In this document: positions 4,730 through 13,752 of the stretch, in pieces
Layout: every line of letters begins with the position of its first letter
How positions within the stretch are numbered: position 1 is the first letter of the stretch
Origin: Campylobacterota bacterium
GTDB taxonomy: Bacteria > Campylobacterota > Campylobacteria > Campylobacterales > Sulfurovaceae
Length of the DNA stretch: 36,675 nucleotides
NCBI GenBank assembly: GCA_013153055.1
Contig: JAADFE010000108.1
Coordinates: 1-36,675, forward strand
Direction of reading: 5' to 3'
Made by a program: the position numbers and the translations under genes
The notes under the pieces: generated by a model
What the model was told of the DNA's origin: nothing
Databases searched by the model: none
Seen by the model: only the letters and a program-made list of their open reading frames with translations

Positions 4730-5545
4730 ATGAAAAGATATAGACATTATAAAAAAGACAAGGCTATAGTTTTGTCTTGTTTTGGTTCCGTAATAGAGCA
4801 GGAGATGTATCTTGCTCTAAAAGATGAGGTTGAAAAAAAATTCAAAGGTGTAGATGTTTTCTTATCATTTAGTTCAAGAATGGTACTAAAAGATTTGCAC
4901 AAAAGAGATATGGATTATAAAAATTTGGCTCAGGTTTTAGCTGATGTTGATATGTTGGGGTATAGAAATATAGTTGTAGCATCTATCAATCTATTTCCAA
5001 CAGATGAGCATGAACTATTAGTTAGGACAGTAAAAGGGTTTGATAGCTTCTCTATGGCAAATATTCGTGCTACAAAAGCTATAATAAATAGAACCAAAGA
5101 GACCTCACTACTACTAAAAGAGCTAAATAGTACTATTAGCAAAGATGGATGGGCAAATCTATATATTATTCATGGTGTTCCACTTTTGGATTTGGCTGGT
5201 TTGGCATCTGTTGGTTATACTGAGCAGTTTTTAAAAATGATTGACAAGAGAAACTACACCTGTTCACTTGAAGGTGCATTTCCATACTATGCACTCAAAG
5301 AGTCTCTAGTTGAGCAGATGAGAGCAGATGGTGTAGATAGTGTTCAGGTGGTTCCTATGCTATTGGTTAGTGGAAACCACTATATCAAAGATATGGTAGA
5401 GATAAGAGATGAGCTAAAAGAGCATTTTGAAGCTCAGATTGTTCAATCTATTACAAAGTCAGATAGATTTAATCTAATTGAGCTAAATTCTATTAGAGAT
5501 ATAATTTTCCAAAATATCAAAGAGGAGATAACCAAGCTTGGATAA
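4730..5545 (+). CDS. cbiK: Sirohydrochlorin cobaltochelatase, CbiK type
   Basis: Inserts Co2+ into sirohydrochlorin (factor II), the first committed step of the anaerobic cobalamin pathway. By alignment from memory with Salmonella CbiK, whose metal ligands are H145, E175 and H207, the equivalents are H148 (YIIHGVP), E181 (CSLEGAFPYY) and H217 (LVSGNHYIKDM); all three are kept. The N-terminal VLSCFGS and the LSFSSRMVLKDLHKRD block also fit. No signal peptide is present, so this is a cytoplasmic form. The 271 residues are normal length. The start is ATG with AAGAGGT upstream. The 3' end overlaps cbiL by 8 bp, indicating translational coupling. Confidence 0.88.
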   Translation: MKRYRHYKKDKAIVLSCFGSVIEQEMYLALKDEVEKKFKGVDVFLSFSSRMVLKDLHKRDMDYKNLAQVLADVDMLGYRNIVVASINLFPTDEHELLVRTVKGFDSFSMANIRATKAIINRTKETSLLLKELNSTISKDGWANLYIIHGVPLLDLAGLASVGYTEQFLKMIDKRNYTCSLEGAFPYYALKESLVEQMRADGVDSVQVVPMLLVSGNHYIKDMVEIRDELKEHFEAQIVQSITKSDRFNLIELNSIRDIIFQNIKEEITKLG

Positions 5546-6203
5546 GAGACTATATATGGTCTCTTTGGGACCGGGGGATAGTGAGTTGATTACTATCAAG
5601 GCTCTAAAAGCTTTAAAAAATAGTGATGCTATATGTGTACCTACCAAATCAAAAGATAGTTTTGAGAAGTCTCTAACCCATAAGATAGTCACAAAACTAA
5701 TGCAAGAGCATAACTTTAGCAAACCAATTATAGCTGTATATACTCCCATGCACTACAAAAAAGAGGATTGGCAGTATCAGGTGGATATACTCTATAGTGG
5801 ATTTAAGGAGTATAATACTCTAAGCTTTGTTACTCTAGGCGATAGTGCTATATATAGTACAGTTTATTATCTACTAGATATTATCAAAGCTCAAAATCCA
5901 AAACTCTACTGTGCTACAGAGGTGATAGCAGGTGTTACATCATTCTCACAAGCATCAGCAAAGGTCAAAAAGCCACTATGTGTAGGTGATAGCAGATTAG
6001 AGATAGTACCACTACTAGATAAAGAGGTTCCCCTCACTACTATATATATGCGTCCAAAAATTGGGATGAATACAGATAGTATTAAAGAAAAGGGTGATAT
6101 ATATACATTTGAAAATATGAACTATCAACAAGAGAATATCACTTCATACAAAAAGAGTGTAGTTCAAAAGTATATGACTCTGTTTATAGATTTTTTTAGA
6201 TAG
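5538..6203 (+). CDS. cbiL: Cobalt-factor II / precorrin-2 C20-methyltransferase
   Basis: SAM-dependent tetrapyrrole methylase that methylates C20 of cobalt-factor II. The N-terminus carries the family signature VSLGPGDSELITIKALKAL (about 8-26), and the SAM-pocket block FVTLGDSAIYSTVYYLLDI lies near residue 97. The 221-residue length is typical. The start is TTG at 5538, inside the end of cbiK, with GAGGAG (5522-5527) upstream; an internal Met at residue 7 would remove part of the signature motif, so TTG is preferred. Its substrate comes from CbiK. Because the pair uses a chelatase first, the cobalt-containing substrate is more likely than precorrin-2. Confidence 0.88.
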   Translation: MDKRLYMVSLGPGDSELITIKALKALKNSDAICVPTKSKDSFEKSLTHKIVTKLMQEHNFSKPIIAVYTPMHYKKEDWQYQVDILYSGFKEYNTLSFVTLGDSAIYSTVYYLLDIIKAQNPKLYCATEVIAGVTSFSQASAKVKKPLCVGDSRLEIVPLLDKEVPLTTIYMRPKIGMNTDSIKEKGDIYTFENMNYQQENITSYKKSVVQKYMTLFIDFFR

Positions 6204-6236
6204 TAAGTTGTTTTATATAATAAAAAAGATTAAAAT

Positions 6237-7010
6237 ATGGGTCAAAAAGATGTAATTAGTAAAGAGGTTCTCAAAAATATAGCAAGAGATATATCTAAAC
6301 ATATTCTACATATTGAAATAAAAGAGGATATGGAGATTATCAATCAAGAATTTACGAGAGTAGAATCACGAGAGAGTGATTTGCTTTATAAAAATGGGGA
6401 TGAAATAGTCCATATTGAGATACAAAATAATAATCATGACCAAATGCACCTACGGATGCACAGATACTATAGTGATATACTTTTTTTGTATGAAGATTAT
6501 AAAATCAGTCAATATATGCTCTATATCGGAAAGTCAAAATGTAATATGAGAGCAGAGATAAAACGAGATAGAATTGATTATAGTTATGATATAATAGACA
6601 TTAGAGATATACCATGTGAATCATTTTTGTATAGTGATGACCCATCAGCTTTGGTTTTAGCTATGCTTTGTGATTTTGAGGGCAAAGATAGACAGATGGT
6701 TGTTAATACTATCTTAAGAAGACTAAGAGAGTTGAATGATGAACAAGAGTATAGAAATTATCTAAAGATGGTTAATATCTATTCGACTAATAGAGGTTTA
6801 GAAAAAGAAGTTGAAAAAGGAGTTGAAATGTTAACTGTAGATATAGAAAAAACACCATTTTATCAAATTGGAGCAAAAAATGCTACTTTTGAGAATGCAA
6901 TAATTATGATAGAAAAGTTTAACCACTCAATAGATGAGATTGTCAAAGAGTTTAATATAAAAAAAGAGGAACTTTTACTATATATAAATCAAAAAAAGTT
7001 AAAAAAATAG
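6237..7010 (+). CDS. Rpn-family (PD-(D/E)XK) recombination-promoting nuclease/putative transposase-like protein
   Basis: A 257-residue protein of the Rpn/YhgA-like group, related to the PD-(D/E)XK nuclease superfamily; E. coli RpnA is a DNA endonuclease that promotes RecA-independent recombination, and some relatives act in phage defence. The likely catalytic core is D48 in ESRESDLLY and E61-x-Q63 in VHIEIQ, followed by HLRMHRYYSDI. The C-terminal half is helical, with a final segment (residues about 222-252) common in this family. It lies 33 bp after cbiL and 7 bp before cbiC, and the cbiC ribosome binding site overlaps its stop codon, so it is embedded in the cobalamin operon. A cobalamin role is not expected; it looks like an insertion that kept the operon readable. 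Confidence 0.78.
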   Translation: MGQKDVISKEVLKNIARDISKHILHIEIKEDMEIINQEFTRVESRESDLLYKNGDEIVHIEIQNNNHDQMHLRMHRYYSDILFLYEDYKISQYMLYIGKSKCNMRAEIKRDRIDYSYDIIDIRDIPCESFLYSDDPSALVLAMLCDFEGKDRQMVVNTILRRLRELNDEQEYRNYLKMVNIYSTNRGLEKEVEKGVEMLTVDIEKTPFYQIGAKNATFENAIIMIEKFNHSIDEIVKEFNIKKEELLLYINQKKLKK

Positions 7011-7731: not shown

Positions 7732-7744
7732 ATTACTGCTCCTT
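7723..7744. terminator. Bidirectional hairpin containing both converging stop codons
   Basis: AAGGAGTAG-ATTA-CTGCTCCTT forms a 9-bp stem with one T/G position that is a U-G wobble in the cbiC transcript. The cbiC stop (7729-7731) lies in the left arm and the stop of the minus-strand GGDEF gene (7733-7735) in the loop. Neither side has a strong T-run, so termination is likely but unproven. Confidence 0.5.
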
Positions 7745-9445
7745 TAAAAATAGTTCAATCTCCTCTGGTGGCATAGGTTTTGCTATGCCATACCCTTGGG
7801 CTCTATCACAACCTAGTTCTAATAAAACAGGCAGATGCTCTTTGCTCTCTACACCTTCTGCTATTACTCTATATCCAAAAACTTTTGCTAACTGTATTGA
7901 GGCATTGACAATAGAGTGGTCATCTTGATTTTTTAACATGCTCATTACAAATTTTTTGTCTATTTTGATACTATCTATTCTGAACTTATTGATACAAGAT
8001 AGGGTAGAGTATCCTGTTCCAAAGTTATCTAGGGCTATTTTAAATCCAAGAGATTTTATTTGTGATATTGAGCCATTTTTAGTCTCTATATCTTTGAGTG
8101 CTATATCTTCTGTTAATTCAAAAACTATTTTATTTGGATTAACAAGAGGATACTCTTTTAGTAACTCTTTTAACATTGGGATAAAGTTTTTTGATGTAAA
8201 TTCTTGGTAACTAATATTGATACTAACTAAAAAGTTATATTTTCTCTCTTTCCATATTTCAAATTGTTTGAATACATTTTCTATTACACTTTTACCTAAT
8301 TCACATACTATTTTTGGGTTATCTAATATATAAGGTAAAAAACTATCTGGAGTCAACACTCCTTTTTGTGGGTGTTTCCATCTAACTAGGGAGGCAAAAG
8401 CTACAACTTTATTACTTTTGATATCTATTATAGGTTGATAATATACTATAAACTCATTTTGATTTATAGCTCTATTTATCTCTTGGGCTTTTTTCTCTTT
8501 TTTTTCTAATGATGATTCCTCATTTTCATCAAAAAATTTATACATTTTTTTTGAATTTTTTGCTAGATACATAGCTTTGTCAGACTGTTTCAAAAGATTT
8601 TTGATTGATATGTTGTTTGATTGTTTGGAGTAAAATGTTATTCCAATACTCAAAGAGATAGGTATGTGGTATTTTGAATTGTTATCTATATAGATTAAAG
8701 GCTCCATAAAACTCTCTTCTACTCTTTTTAGGAGGCTCAATATATGACTATGTTTTTTCAAAAAACCTATGGCTACTGCAAATTCATCTCCACCAAATCT
8801 TGCTACTATGTCATCCTTTCTTAGAGAGTGTAGTAGATTTTTTGCTACTCTTTTTAATACAGCATCTCCTGCATCATGACCATATGTATCATTGATATTT
8901 TTGAATAAGTTTAAATCTATGCTTAATATAGCAACTTGTTTATTAGATTGAGTACTCTCAGTTATAAGTTTTTCTGCCTTCTGATAGAACAGTTTACGAT
9001 TTAATAGTCCTGTTAACTCATCATACTGTAAGGCAATTTCTAAATCCATCTTAGCTTTTTTTTGTTCTCTTTCTATTTTTAATAGATTTATTATATCATT
9101 GAGTGCATTCATCATTTGATTTGGATTTATGGGTTTTAATATATATTTATCTATACCAATATTGATAGCTTTATTTAGATATTTAGTGGTGTTATACGCT
9201 GTCAAAAGAGCTATTTTTTGATAAGGATTTAATTTTTTGATTTCGTTTATCATACCAAATCCATCCATATTAGGCATAGATATATCGGCTAAGATAATAT
9301 CTGGGTTTTTTTCTTTGTATAGTTTTATTCCTTCTTCACCATCATTGGCTATATAAATCTCTCTAAAAGATGATTTAAGTATCACCTTGACAATTTTTTG
9401 TATAATCTTATTATCTTCTACATAGAGGAGGGTAAAATCTTCCAT
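7733..9445 (-). CDS. Response regulator REC-GGDEF-EAL protein: diguanylate cyclase with degenerate EAL domain
   Basis: A cytoplasmic output protein predicted to make cyclic-di-GMP when phosphorylated. REC (1-120) has E10/D11, phospho-acceptor D54 (ADISMPNMDG) and K104. GGDEF (about 135-305) has an intact RFGGDEF (216-222) and a product-inhibition I-site R209-K-D-D212, so it should be an active, feedback-controlled cyclase. The EAL domain (320-570) has changed catalytic positions: EAL reads ASL (351-353), and the DD of the DDFG motif reads D473-N474. FELTED, KID and AEGVES are kept. Phosphodiesterase activity is therefore doubtful; the domain may only bind c-di-GMP. It directly abuts the upstream hybrid kinase gene with no intergenic base, which makes that kinase its probable partner. 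Confidence 0.92.
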   Translation of the reverse strand: MEDFTLLYVEDNKIIQKIVKVILKSSFREIYIANDGEEGIKLYKEKNPDIILADISMPNMDGFGMINEIKKLNPYQKIALLTAYNTTKYLNKAINIGIDKYILKPINPNQMMNALNDIINLLKIEREQKKAKMDLEIALQYDELTGLLNRKLFYQKAEKLITESTQSNKQVAILSIDLNLFKNINDTYGHDAGDAVLKRVAKNLLHSLRKDDIVARFGGDEFAVAIGFLKKHSHILSLLKRVEESFMEPLIYIDNNSKYHIPISLSIGITFYSKQSNNISIKNLLKQSDKAMYLAKNSKKMYKFFDENEESSLEKKEKKAQEINRAINQNEFIVYYQPIIDIKSNKVVAFASLVRWKHPQKGVLTPDSFLPYILDNPKIVCELGKSVIENVFKQFEIWKERKYNFLVSINISYQEFTSKNFIPMLKELLKEYPLVNPNKIVFELTEDIALKDIETKNGSISQIKSLGFKIALDNFGTGYSTLSCINKFRIDSIKIDKKFVMSMLKNQDDHSIVNASIQLAKVFGYRVIAEGVESKEHLPVLLELGCDRAQGYGIAKPMPPEEIELFLKEQ

Positions 9446-12013
9446 TTATATACTCCTAATTTGAGGGGATATATATCTTTTTAGTATATCTTGTAACTCT
9501 TCTATCTGTATAGGTTTAGATATATAATCATCCATCCCCTCTTTTATATATTTTTCTTTGTCTCCCTGTAGGGCATTTGCTGTTAATGCTATTATTGGGA
9601 TATGTTTTTTATTCTCTTGTATCTCAAATTGGGATATATTTTTTGTAGCATCAATTCCACCCATAATAGGCATCTGAATATCCATAAAAATAATATCATA
9701 TTCATCCGTCTGTCTGGATTTTAGTGCCTCTTTTCCATTGTTTACAACTGTAACATCCATGCCAAAGTTATCTAGTACTCTTTTCATAAGTTTTTGATTT
9801 ATGAGATTGTCTTCTGCTACTAAAGCTTTTATTTTATTAAATTTTAATCTATCTGTTGTTTTGTTTTCTATCTCTTTTGGTTTATCTATAAGTGTTTTTA
9901 GACTTTGTGATGTTCTTGTAAAATTAATGGGTTCATATATATATTGAGCTACATTCTTTTTTATGTTACTTAGCTCATTTTTTCTATCTCCTGATAGGAT
10001 TAGAACTAATTTACTAGGTAGTGATAAAAAAGGATTAATATCACCATCTCTATTAAAACATGAGTAGTGGATAAAAATCAAATCAGGTAGTTTGGTTGTC
10101 GAGAGGGAAAATATCTTATGAAACTCATAACTCTCAAATTTAGCACCATGATACTCAGTATATACTTTTAAGTTTTTATCTATACCACTATCTCTTTGAG
10201 GTAAAATATATCCTACTCGATATCCCGTTAGATTTAATCTAATCTGCTCTTTCGTCTCTTTTGGTTTTTTAAATTTTAGTGAAAAGAAAAAGTCTGAACC
10301 CTCTCCTTTTTTGCTATCTATTTCTAGTTTTCCACCCATATATTTAATAAGTTGACTAGATATACTAAGCCCCAATCCTGTACCACCATATTTTCTACTA
10401 GTACTAGCATCTGCTTGAGAAAATGCGTCAAATATTCTGTTCTTTTCTTTATCTGTAATACCAATTCCAGTATCTTTAACAGAGAAATGTATAGTGATAT
10501 CATTTAGAGTTTGAGAGATTTTTCTCATAGATATATATATTATTCCACCATCTGGTGTAAATTTGATAGCATTACTAATTAGGTTGGTAAGTACCTGAGA
10601 TATTTTGGTAGGGTCTCCTAATATTTCTAGTGGTATATATGGGTCACTATATATATTAAATTCTATATTTTTTTCTCTTGCTTTTGCTGTATATGTATCT
10701 ATAGTAGCCTCAAATTGTTTTATAGGATTAAAAGGTATGCTCTCTAGTTCTAGTTTACCTGCTTTGATTTTAGAAAAATCTAGTATATTATTGACTATAT
10801 GTATGAGATTATTGGAGCTATTTTTTATGATGGATACCATCTCTTTTTGTTCTTGGGATAGGTTTGTATCTTCTAATAATCTAGTAAAGCCTATAATACC
10901 ATTGAGTGGTGTACGAATTTCATGAGACATATTTGCTAAAAATCTATCTTTTGCACGGCTAGGTTCTTTTATCTCATTTGCTAAAAATTTGTATATCTCT
11001 ATAGTATCATTTAGGTTTAGTATCTTTTTTATCTCTCTTTTTTTACTCTCATCTAAATCAACTTCTATATATTTTAGTGTATTTTTTAGAAATTTTCTAT
11101 CTTTTTGTACATTACTCCAAGTGTTCAAAAGCCATAAAATCAAAAGCCATAAAAATAAAATCAAAAGAGATATAAATATATATCTATTCATTTGCCTCTC
11201 TTTGGATAAAAGTTCATTTCCTAAGTGAATTTTTGAGTTAAATAGAAGTATATATTGTGCATTTTCAACTCTTTTCATTTTCTCTTTGATACTATCTACC
11301 CAATCTTTAAAACTTGTAGAGTATCTCCCCTCTTGAGATTCAAAAAAAATCTCTGCTCTAGTTTTTATAGCGATTTTATTAAAGGAGTTTTTGTCTAATA
11401 TCTTATTGATTTTTAGTTCTATATCTATATTTTTAAATGGTATAAAATTGGGAAAGGTTATATGAGAGATTATTTTATCCCAATATATTAAGTCTTGGGT
11501 ATCCATTATTTTATTTTGATTTAGAATAAAAGCCAAAAGACTATTCTCCATATTTATCTCTTCTTTTAGCTGAATTAATTTTAGTGCATTGTATATATCT
11601 TTGGAGTTAGTAATACTATTCATTTTGTACAATAAAGGTTTTATGATTTTTCCTTCATATAAGTCAAAAAGTATATGTATATAATCTCCACTATTTTTAT
11701 TTACAATATTTCTTATCTGTTTTAGCTCTTTTGGTGAAACAAAATCACTATTTAGTTTGTTTACTTTGGCTCTTTTTTGTTCAAGTTGATTAAATATTTT
11801 TGGATTTTTGAGACTCATATATACGCTAGAGTACAGAACCTCTTCTTGGATAGCTTCTAGGGTTTTATTTAGTTGATTGAACAGTTTTTGTTTCTCTACT
11901 TCTTGTTTTACTTCTTGATATTCTTTATAGACATTATAAGTTTTAGATGCAAAAATAGTTAATGCTATGGCTATAATAAAAAATAGTAATATTTTATTAT
12001 TTAATAGTTTCAT
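9446..12013 (-). CDS. Hybrid sensor histidine kinase with NIT-like periplasmic domain
   Basis: Membrane kinase of 855 residues. TM1 (about 8-23) and TM2 (278-296) enclose a roughly 250-residue helical periplasmic region whose length and blocks ([20 protein letters not shown], and the stretch around [14 protein letters not shown]) resemble the NIT nitrate/nitrite-sensing domain; this is recognition by eye. Then come HisKA with H364 in [12 protein letters not shown], an ATPase domain with N478 (LISNAIKFT), DTGIGI and GGTGLGLS, a degenerate receiver-like stretch (about 597-710), and a C-terminal receiver with D778 ([11 protein letters not shown]). It follows two small PilJ-like genes by 14 bp and abuts the GGDEF gene. 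Phosphotransfer to the REC-GGDEF-EAL protein is inferred from position. Confidence 0.88.
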
Positions 12014-12027
12014 TTGATAGCACCTTT

Positions 12028-12807
12028 TTATAGATTTCTTTTGTGATATTGTTCTATTTGTGTAACCAAATCTTCTATATACTGCGTAGAATTTGATAAT
12101 ATATAAGGAATAGATAATTTATCTACTTGATAGAAGAACCTTTTATCTCTATCCCATATTTTATTGATTTTATCTAGTTTATAGTATAAATCATTTGGGT
12201 AGGTGTATCTATTTATCATTTTTAGACGGATATCTGTATCTTCTATCGCTTTTTGCATCTTTTGATAGTTTGTATTACTATTTAGACCAATAGATAGTGC
12301 CATATAATATTTATTAACTCTTCTGAGTAGATATAAAATCTCTTTACTTAACATGAGCATCTTCTCTTCTTTTGAGAATTTATATTTATGTTCATTAGCT
12401 ATAGATTGGATACCTTCTAATAAAATATCACTAGAATCTAGGATATCTTCTACATATGATAGATTTATCTTTTTGTTTGGAATACTTTTTATATTTACTT
12501 TTATCTCTTTTATTTTATATTTGAAATATTTTAAAATCCGTTCAGTATTTCCTCCTTTTCTTATATCTTCTATATCTTCAAGCTCTTTTATATAAAACTG
12601 GAGATTATCTATATTTTTATATAGTTGATTTTTTAATACTATATTATTAGGATTTTTGTAAAAAAATAGATAATCTGTTGCAATTTTTTGACTTAGATAC
12701 TGTATATTTTCAGTTGCCTCTAGGATTTTGACATCTCCTCTAGTTGATGCAAAAGATATTTTTGTTATTGTTAATATAGTAACTAAAATATATAAAACTT
12801 TTTTCAA
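12028..12807 (-). CDS. Exported PilJ-like helical protein B
   Basis: A 259-residue protein with an N-terminal signal peptide ([20 protein letters not shown], cut before STRG) and no further membrane span, so probably periplasmic. The mature part is almost entirely helical. [19 protein letters not shown] (31-49) is a diverged form of the MLSQR-type helix of the PilJ/type IV pilus chemotaxis sensor N-terminal domain, and a weaker second copy appears near 152-171 ([20 protein letters not shown]), giving two tandem units. It is a paralogue of the gene 16 bp upstream. There is no catalytic motif. A role as ligand-binding partner of the NIT-like kinase is inferred from the operon. The ATG start is preceded by a purine-rich GGGGGGC stretch. 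Confidence 0.6.
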
Positions 12808-12823
12808 TATGCCCCCCTATTTA

Positions 12824-13600
12824 CTATCTATTTTGTGATGTGTAAAATCTAATTAGCTCGTTCATTGTATTTGTGATTTTATCAGTAGTATCAAATACAA
12901 TTAAAGGAAGTTCACCTCTTTCTATATCAGCATAAAATGTATGAGTTATTTTCCATAACTCATCTATATCATCTAACTTTTTCTTTATAGTTGGATTTTT
13001 TGTTCTATATCTTGTTAATTTTTTGCGATTTCTTTGAAACATCTCTATACTTTTTTTCATATCACTTTTTGTTTGTCTGCTTTTATTTAATTGATATGCA
13101 ATATAATATTTTGCTATTTTTTGAGCTAATATACTCTGTTCTCCTACTGTTGCAATAAATTCAGAATCTTTGTTATGAATCTCTTTTTTGAGTGATGAGA
13201 TAATCTGCTCACTCTTATTTAAAATAGATTCACTCAAATTTAACATTGTTTTTACATTTTTTGTATTTAGTGGTTTATTGGATATATTACTAAATTGAGT
13301 AGAGCTTTGTTTTACAAAACGCATAATATTTTTTACTCTTTTATCTTTTGTGAGATGGTTTACTTTTTGGTAAGAGTTTTTGAACTCTTTTAGTGAGTTT
13401 TTTATCTCTCTATTTGCTTTATCTATAGCAATGCCTTTTCCTGCATATAGATAAGCTTTTGTAATTTGTTGAGATAGCATCCCTTGTTGATTTATGATAT
13501 TTAATAGTTTGATACTGTTTCTATCAGTTGTTATAGTATTAGATATTAGCGTATTTGTAAAAAATAATATAAGAATAATTATGCTATATAATCTATTCAT
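12824..13600 (-). CDS. Exported PilJ-like helical protein A
   Basis: A 258-residue predicted periplasmic protein, first in the operon. The signal peptide covers about residues 1-21 (IIILILFFTNTLIS). Two tandem helical units are visible: NIINQQGMLSQQITKAYLY (34-52) and VGEQSILAQKIAKYYIAYQ (152-170), both close to the NxAGRQRMLSQRxAKAYL motif of PilJ domains, the family that also covers the sensing region of NarX/NarQ-like nitrate sensors. Each is followed by a KxSxxxF-type helix. No enzyme motif or lipobox is present. The start is ATG with AAGGAGAAAC upstream, an excellent ribosome binding site. Being secreted without transmembrane or signalling domain, it is unlike usual PilJ proteins, which are chemoreceptors or kinases. 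Confidence 0.68.
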   Translation of the reverse strand: MNRLYSIIILILFFTNTLISNTITTDRNSIKLLNIINQQGMLSQQITKAYLYAGKGIAIDKANREIKNSLKEFKNSYQKVNHLTKDKRVKNIMRFVKQSSTQFSNISNKPLNTKNVKTMLNLSESILNKSEQIISSLKKEIHNKDSEFIATVGEQSILAQKIAKYYIAYQLNKSRQTKSDMKKSIEMFQRNRKKLTRYRTKNPTIKKKLDDIDELWKITHTFYADIERGELPLIVFDTTDKITNTMNELIRFYTSQNR

Positions 13601-13663
13601 TTTGTTTCTCCTTAGCCCATTTGACGAGCTTTGAATTTATGAATTTTAGAGAATAAAGATATG

Positions 13664-13669
13664 ATTATA
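13664..13669 (-). promoter_or_regulatory. -10 box for the PilJ-kinase-GGDEF operon
   Basis: TATAAT on the minus strand in GGATATAATC, 64 bp before the PilJ-A start codon. A second TATAAT lies at 13692-13687. Either could serve. The 152-bp gap holds nothing else I recognise. Confidence 0.4.
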
Positions 13670-13752
13670 TCCTATTCTCTGTTAACATTATAGCATTAAT
13701 TATCACTAATTATAATATAGAATGTTTGATAATAATTTTTTTTAAGAGAATT

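Follow-up and report, generated by a model that had tools for sequence, protein, structure and literature searches.

The operon described here raises the question of how two soluble PilJ-type proteins, predicted to be exported, could be connected to a membrane-bound hybrid kinase with a NIT-like sensor and to a putative enzyme of cyclic di-GMP (c-di-GMP) turnover. The window (the whole stretch of 36,675 nucleotides that was analyzed) is contig C139 in the draft genome (1.91 Mb, 84% complete) of a sulphur-vent-type bacterium whose close relatives are Sulfurovum and other Campylobacterota. Four genes follow each other on the minus strand with gaps of 16, 14, and 0 bp, exactly the coordinates and spacing originally predicted for a four-gene operon. 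In the order of the genes, preceded by the leader, the features are:

13601 to 13690, minus strand: operon leader containing a TATAAT, a hairpin (z -4.8 for the window copy), and a Shine-Dalgarno sequence, in that order
12824 to 13600, minus strand: PilJ1, predicted exported soluble protein of 258 aa with two PilJ-type four-helix bundles (PF13675, AlphaFold2, orthologue alignments A1 and A6)
12028 to 12807, minus strand: PilJ2, second helical protein with predicted export, 259 aa, TTG start, without an N-box (hhalign A2 vs A5, orthologues in A2)
9446 to 12013, minus strand: hybrid histidine kinase of 855 aa, organized as TM-periplasmic NIT-TM-HisKA-HATPase-REC (Pfam, structure, kinase tree)
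11180 to 11923, minus strand: periplasmic NIT-fold sensor of the kinase, residues ~31-278 (model pLDDT 90, NasR 4akk)
7733 to 9445, minus strand: REC-GGDEF-EAL response regulator of 570 aa, a predicted diguanylate cyclase (Pfam, motif comparison, co-occurrence, mirror tree)

The flanks of the operon are ordinary, with an NlpC/P60 gene 152 bp upstream accompanied by a FixG-type (CcoG-like) gene, and converging cobalamin genes on the opposite side, among them cbiC, which ends 1 bp from the operon (Pfam assignments). Neither PADLOC nor Rfam returned a match.

PilJ1 carries a putative signal peptide (residues ~1-20, assigned by inspection) and matches the curated Pfam family PilJ (PF13675) with 37.8 bits against a cut-off of 26.6 (E 2e-9). 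Its AlphaFold2 model (pLDDT 87) consists of eight helices in two bundles, and the only global match to this model among the PDB chains listed was the NIT protein NasR (TM 0.56, probability 0.97, E 0.37). A sequence-profile search of the PDB with PilJ1 gave weak matches only, to PilJ and McpN. PilJ2 is a remote homologue of PilJ1 (profile-profile probability 99.7%, E 5e-27, hhalign A2 vs A5), and as the window copy has no Pfam match, this homology is the one basis of its PilJ assignment. The original prediction of a soluble PilJ-type pair was therefore borne out, by Pfam and the NasR-like two-bundle model for PilJ1 and by homology to PilJ1 for PilJ2.

The sensor of the kinase can be assigned to the NIT family, though Pfam does not recognize the window copy: Pfam NIT (PF08376) is found in 16 out of 23 alignable homologous sensor regions but gives no match in the window kinase. 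NasR (4akk) was the only PDB match to the sensor model with E below 0.001 (E 6e-4, probability 1.00), and the PilJ1-NasR match, with its E of 0.37, suggests structural kinship less strongly than this one. A sequence-profile search of the PDB with the NIT region returned nothing relevant. These data agree with the NIT-like character that had been proposed for the sensor. The sensor lacks a P-box, and the combination of PilJ-type sensor and P-box within the kinase that characterizes NarX/NarQ is absent. Residues ~590-730, between the HATPase and REC domains, have no Pfam match.

Relatives of PilJ1 were sought by a profile scan of 84,980 species, and extended neighborhoods were examined as well. 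A contig scan with the window PilJ1 gave no matches, and an alignment omitting this divergent copy recovered >300 relatives. Within the order, PilJ1 relatives are present in 17 out of 150 genomes. The gene order PilJ0-PilJ1-PilJ2-NIT receptor recurs in many loci of two Campylobacterota families and is conserved in dozens, far above chance; the original prediction had named absence of the neighborhood from all other genomes as the outcome that would speak against it. Many of the genomes are draft metagenome-assembled genomes, which makes absences soft, and a genome present in two collections may account for more than one of the loci. Receptors in the family of the window (f1) are hybrid kinases of ~1000-1130 aa, those in the second family (f6) are proteins of ~510-600 aa without recognizable HisKA or HATPase, and at one locus (L047) the receptor is a NIT-TM protein of 330 aa. 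The PilJ trio, all three of them soluble proteins with predicted export, and the NIT domain are thus constant across the sets and the rest of the receptor varies. Since only the NIT domain is constant downstream of the PilJ genes, the PilJ proteins are tied to the NIT domain and not to an enzyme, which suggests that the PilJ trio and the NIT domain form one sensing unit. This module is apparently undescribed so far.

Several further observations concern the wider family. The C-terminus of the f6 receptors (L045, L046, L055, and others) is possibly a degenerate kinase-like region. Single soluble twin-PilJ relatives were found in many other bacteria; in other phyla some adjoin nirB or nasA or sit near narK, and others adjoin unrelated genes (dxs). 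Contigs C28, C46, C150, and C31 of the genome that holds the window (G000) encode further proteins, each with two to four PilJ domains in tandem (frames of 337-567 aa, L039-L042). An apparent PilJ2-kinase fusion at L164, considered as a Rosetta stone, was rejected as an artefact because a run of N joins two contig pieces.

The genome that contains the window also holds a full three-PilJ set at another location (contig C19, L043). Comparison of the two identifies the window set as a reduced, derived version of the three-PilJ module, a point that the original prediction did not contain. In this derived version, found among the 34 genomes sampled from the genus, PilJ0 is missing and the kinase measures ~850 aa; the version occurs in 12 genomes and is restricted to the genus, and its kinases are monophyletic with a support of 1.000. 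Three forms can be distinguished beside the canonical type A: type B keeps both PilJ proteins at full size, type C (four genomes) has a PilJ1 cut to one bundle of 139-141 aa, and type D (the window and genome G283, whose contig ends inside PilJ2 and leaves PilJ1 outside the data) has the REC-GGDEF-EAL gene adjoining the kinase. A 597-aa gene beside the type C sets was considered as an output and proved to be uvrC. The leader hairpin starts directly after the TATAAT, and a comparable layout is found in two-PilJ sets of other genomes but not in the canonical set that this genome also carries. The hairpin may be an operator or an RNA element; covariation is too weak, and the consensus fold too weak, for the hairpin to be claimed as an RNA element.

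The loss of PilJ0 is accompanied by the loss of the nitrate-type N-box, which was scored as the strict pattern [IVL]-[ND]-x-A-G-x-Q-R-M-L-[ST]-Q defined for McpN (PMC6381276). In canonical sets, both PilJ0 and PilJ1 contain the nitrate N-box of McpN/NarQ (G-x-x-R), with the strict form in 26 out of 30 type A PilJ1 proteins. In the full set of the window genome, PilJ1 keeps both arginines and its first box (AAKQRMLSQ) misses the glycine of the strict form. In the two-PilJ clade, the window included, the strict N-box was found in none of 10 PilJ1 and none of 11 PilJ2 proteins, and the N-box arginine is absent from every box that remains. A census of PilJ2 in all sets gave 0/40 N-boxes. The two boxes of the window PilJ1 (alignments A1 and A6) are:

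13469 to 13504, minus strand: degenerate N-box 1 of PilJ1, reading LNIINQQGMLSQ, G-x-x-R lost (R to G)
13121 to 13156, minus strand: degenerate N-box 2 of PilJ1, reading IATVGEQSILAQ (R to S)

Paired MLSQ-type motifs had been described for both proteins; the pair is present in PilJ1 (MLSQ and ILAQ, both altered), whereas PilJ2 has a single clear box (YLSQK). Despite the loss of the arginine the genes of the clade are intact, and dN/dS values for the PilJ genes of type B (0.10-0.29) and type C (0.12-0.39), the types to which this analysis was applied (the window copy is too divergent), indicate purifying selection and rule out pseudogene decay for these testable copies.

The output protein was compared across 12 orthologues. 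The GGDEF motif and the RxxD inhibitory I-site are intact in 12/12, and at least one catalytic EAL residue is lost in 12/12, the residues differing between them; in the window EAL is changed to ASL and DDFG to DNFG, which leaves the phosphodiesterase residue set incomplete. An EAL domain broken at varying residues is expected if selection acts on synthesis alone. Judged by these motifs, the window protein probably makes c-di-GMP, and the intact GGDEF signature is in line with the c-di-GMP output that was originally predicted. The cyclase gene adjoins the kinase gene only in the window and in G283 (L154) and is unlinked in the other carriers. An orthologue (50-63% identity) is present in 12 out of 175 genomes of the family, and 11 of these 12 hold the two-PilJ set (Fisher p 5e-7 within the genus, or 8e-7 when the genomes counted have a completeness of at least 80%, tests that treat the genomes irrespective of phylogeny). 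The exceptions are G291, which has the cyclase and no detected set, and G299 (70% complete), which has the set and no cyclase. In a DnaE tree, used as a single-marker species proxy, the carriers are spread over at least four separate branches, so the match is not simply explained by one shared ancestor. Kinase and cyclase distances are correlated (r 0.89), and the correlation persists when the distances of this single marker are controlled for (partial Mantel 0.84, p 0.0002). Co-occurrence on separate branches and mirrored trees together provide good evidence that kinase and cyclase cooperate even where their genes are unlinked.

Three type B loci (L190, L191, and L193) have an open cyclase frame in which no ATG, GTG, or TTG precedes the receiver domain, possibly because of a rare start codon. 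At L056, a REC-EAL protein whose GGDEF domain is degenerate (5239-6897) is encoded upstream of a PilJ1-PilJ2-NIT-like set, at a distance of two genes; this is a further link to c-di-GMP. Among the DnaE genes of the genus, four (L223, L216, L218, and L221) form frames of 1403-1646 aa in which the match is split around residues ~389-406 in an intein-like manner, and the G283 copy contains a TAA.

We consider it rather probable that the four proteins constitute a phosphorelay in which PilJ1 and PilJ2, two soluble periplasmic proteins with twin four-helix bundles, act as co-sensors or regulators of the NIT hybrid kinase, which in turn switches the diguanylate cyclase. The PilJ proteins would most likely dock on the periplasmic NIT domain and thereby set the state of the kinase, which would phosphorylate the REC domain of the REC-GGDEF-EAL protein and so switch its cyclase activity. 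As the kinase contains no HPt domain and only three HPt matches were found genome-wide, phosphate may either be handed over directly by the histidine of the kinase or travel via a separate HPt protein. Alternatively, PilJ1 and PilJ2 could be structural leftovers or stabilizers, a ligand-free scaffold or chaperone beside a NIT kinase that senses alone. The absence of an N-box from PilJ2, the reduction of PilJ1 to one bundle in four genomes, and the NIT kinases elsewhere in the family that lack PilJ partners (L166-L173), and thus show that NIT does not require PilJ proteins, would all fit such a role. We regard it as unlikely, however, because the PilJ genes have stayed in register, are under purifying selection in the testable copies, and have not been lost as a pair from any two-PilJ set in the sample whose contig is intact. 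That the cyclase is a mere neighbor, adjacent by accident in two genomes while the kinase signals to other receivers, would account for the unlinked genes of all other carriers, but it is very hard to reconcile with 11/12 co-occurrence on separate branches and with kinase and cyclase trees that still mirror each other after control for species distance, and we give it the least credence of the explanations considered.

A separate question is what the relay may respond to, as the NIT and PilJ families had led to the prediction of nitrate/nitrite-type sensing. Both families include nitrate-binding members (PMC6381276, PMC8199190), and in McpN the N-box and its arginine are tied to nitrate by experiment (PMC6381276). 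With N-boxes in PilJ0 and PilJ1 of the canonical sister sets, nitrate is a reasonable ligand for those sets. These N-boxes, and the twin-PilJ relatives beside nirB or nasA or near narK in some genomes of other phyla, would favor a nitrate or nitrite sensor in the window as well, in which PilJ1 and PilJ2 bind the ion and pass the signal to the NIT kinase, resulting in nitrate-controlled c-di-GMP, but this is improbable. The N-box and its G-x-x-R are missing from all PilJ proteins of the clade, the analogous arginine is the one probed in McpN by R61A (PMC6381276), the widespread NIT arginine beside E58 is a valine in the window kinase, and no nitrate genes were identified by Pfam among the ten neighborhood proteins scanned. 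Moreover, NIT and PilJ domains without nitrate binding have been reported, among them the NIT domain of PA4520 (PMC6381276). Since PilJ0 is absent and the N-box arginine is lost across the clade, nitrate sensing is unlikely for the window copy on sequence grounds, and the copy has probably changed to another ligand or become ligand-independent.

Taken more broadly, the ancestral module would have been PilJ0-PilJ1-PilJ2-NIT with a nitrate-type N-box in PilJ0 and PilJ1. Somewhat more tentatively than the relay itself, and at slightly less than even chances, we suggest a widespread class of multi-protein receptors in which soluble twin-bundle PilJ proteins bind the ligand and signal by docking onto a NIT domain of similar two-bundle fold, one branch of the genus having lost the nitrate site and now being devoted to controlling c-di-GMP in response to a new stimulus. 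Both domains, PilJ and NIT, are filed as sensors built into receptors; here the PilJ-type proteins are free-standing and travel with a NIT receptor phylum-wide, so that sensing and signalling are apparently split between proteins. The occurrence of a full three-PilJ copy and an arginine-less reduced copy in one genome makes both the ligand change and the role of the NIT partner directly testable. If true, the link to the cyclase would mean that this sensor governs the surface/motile switch of vent-type sulphur bacteria.

Among known systems, the NarX/NarQ kinases and McpN share the PilJ-type four-helix periplasmic sensing mode, with the box at the same position in the first helix, but their PilJ domain is built into a membrane receptor, whereas the PilJ proteins here are separate and soluble and the window copy is without the nitrate arginine. 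NasR (NIT-ANTAR, 4akk) has the NIT fold of the kinase sensor, and the eight helices and two bundles of PilJ1 resemble it as well; NasR, however, is a one-component RNA-binding antiterminator, whereas the NIT domain described here is periplasmic and part of a hybrid kinase. XylFII-LytS and TorT-TorS are two-component systems in which an accessory periplasmic protein takes part. In these and in QseG-QseE, as in the present system, a separate extracytoplasmic protein is proposed to act via the kinase sensor, but their partners are of the sugar-binding type or a lipoprotein, whereas here two or three PilJ-type proteins belong to the same broad helical class as the sensor of the receptor. QseG-QseE is likewise described as a two-component system with an accessory periplasmic protein (PMC12691602). 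The actinobacterial Cvn (conservon) systems combine NIT kinases with the accessory proteins CvnE/CvnF (PMC13343842) and are alike in their kinase family and in the use of accessory sensor proteins; CvnF, however, is a GAF protein that accompanies kinases without NIT, and the described core parts include neither PilJ nor a diguanylate cyclase. Full-text searches of the open-access literature did not turn up any account of soluble PilJ proteins that act with a NIT kinase, and the original prediction likewise named none. Two-component systems that use an accessory protein and have a c-di-GMP output are of a known kind, and to our knowledge it is the parts and the way they are split between proteins that are new.
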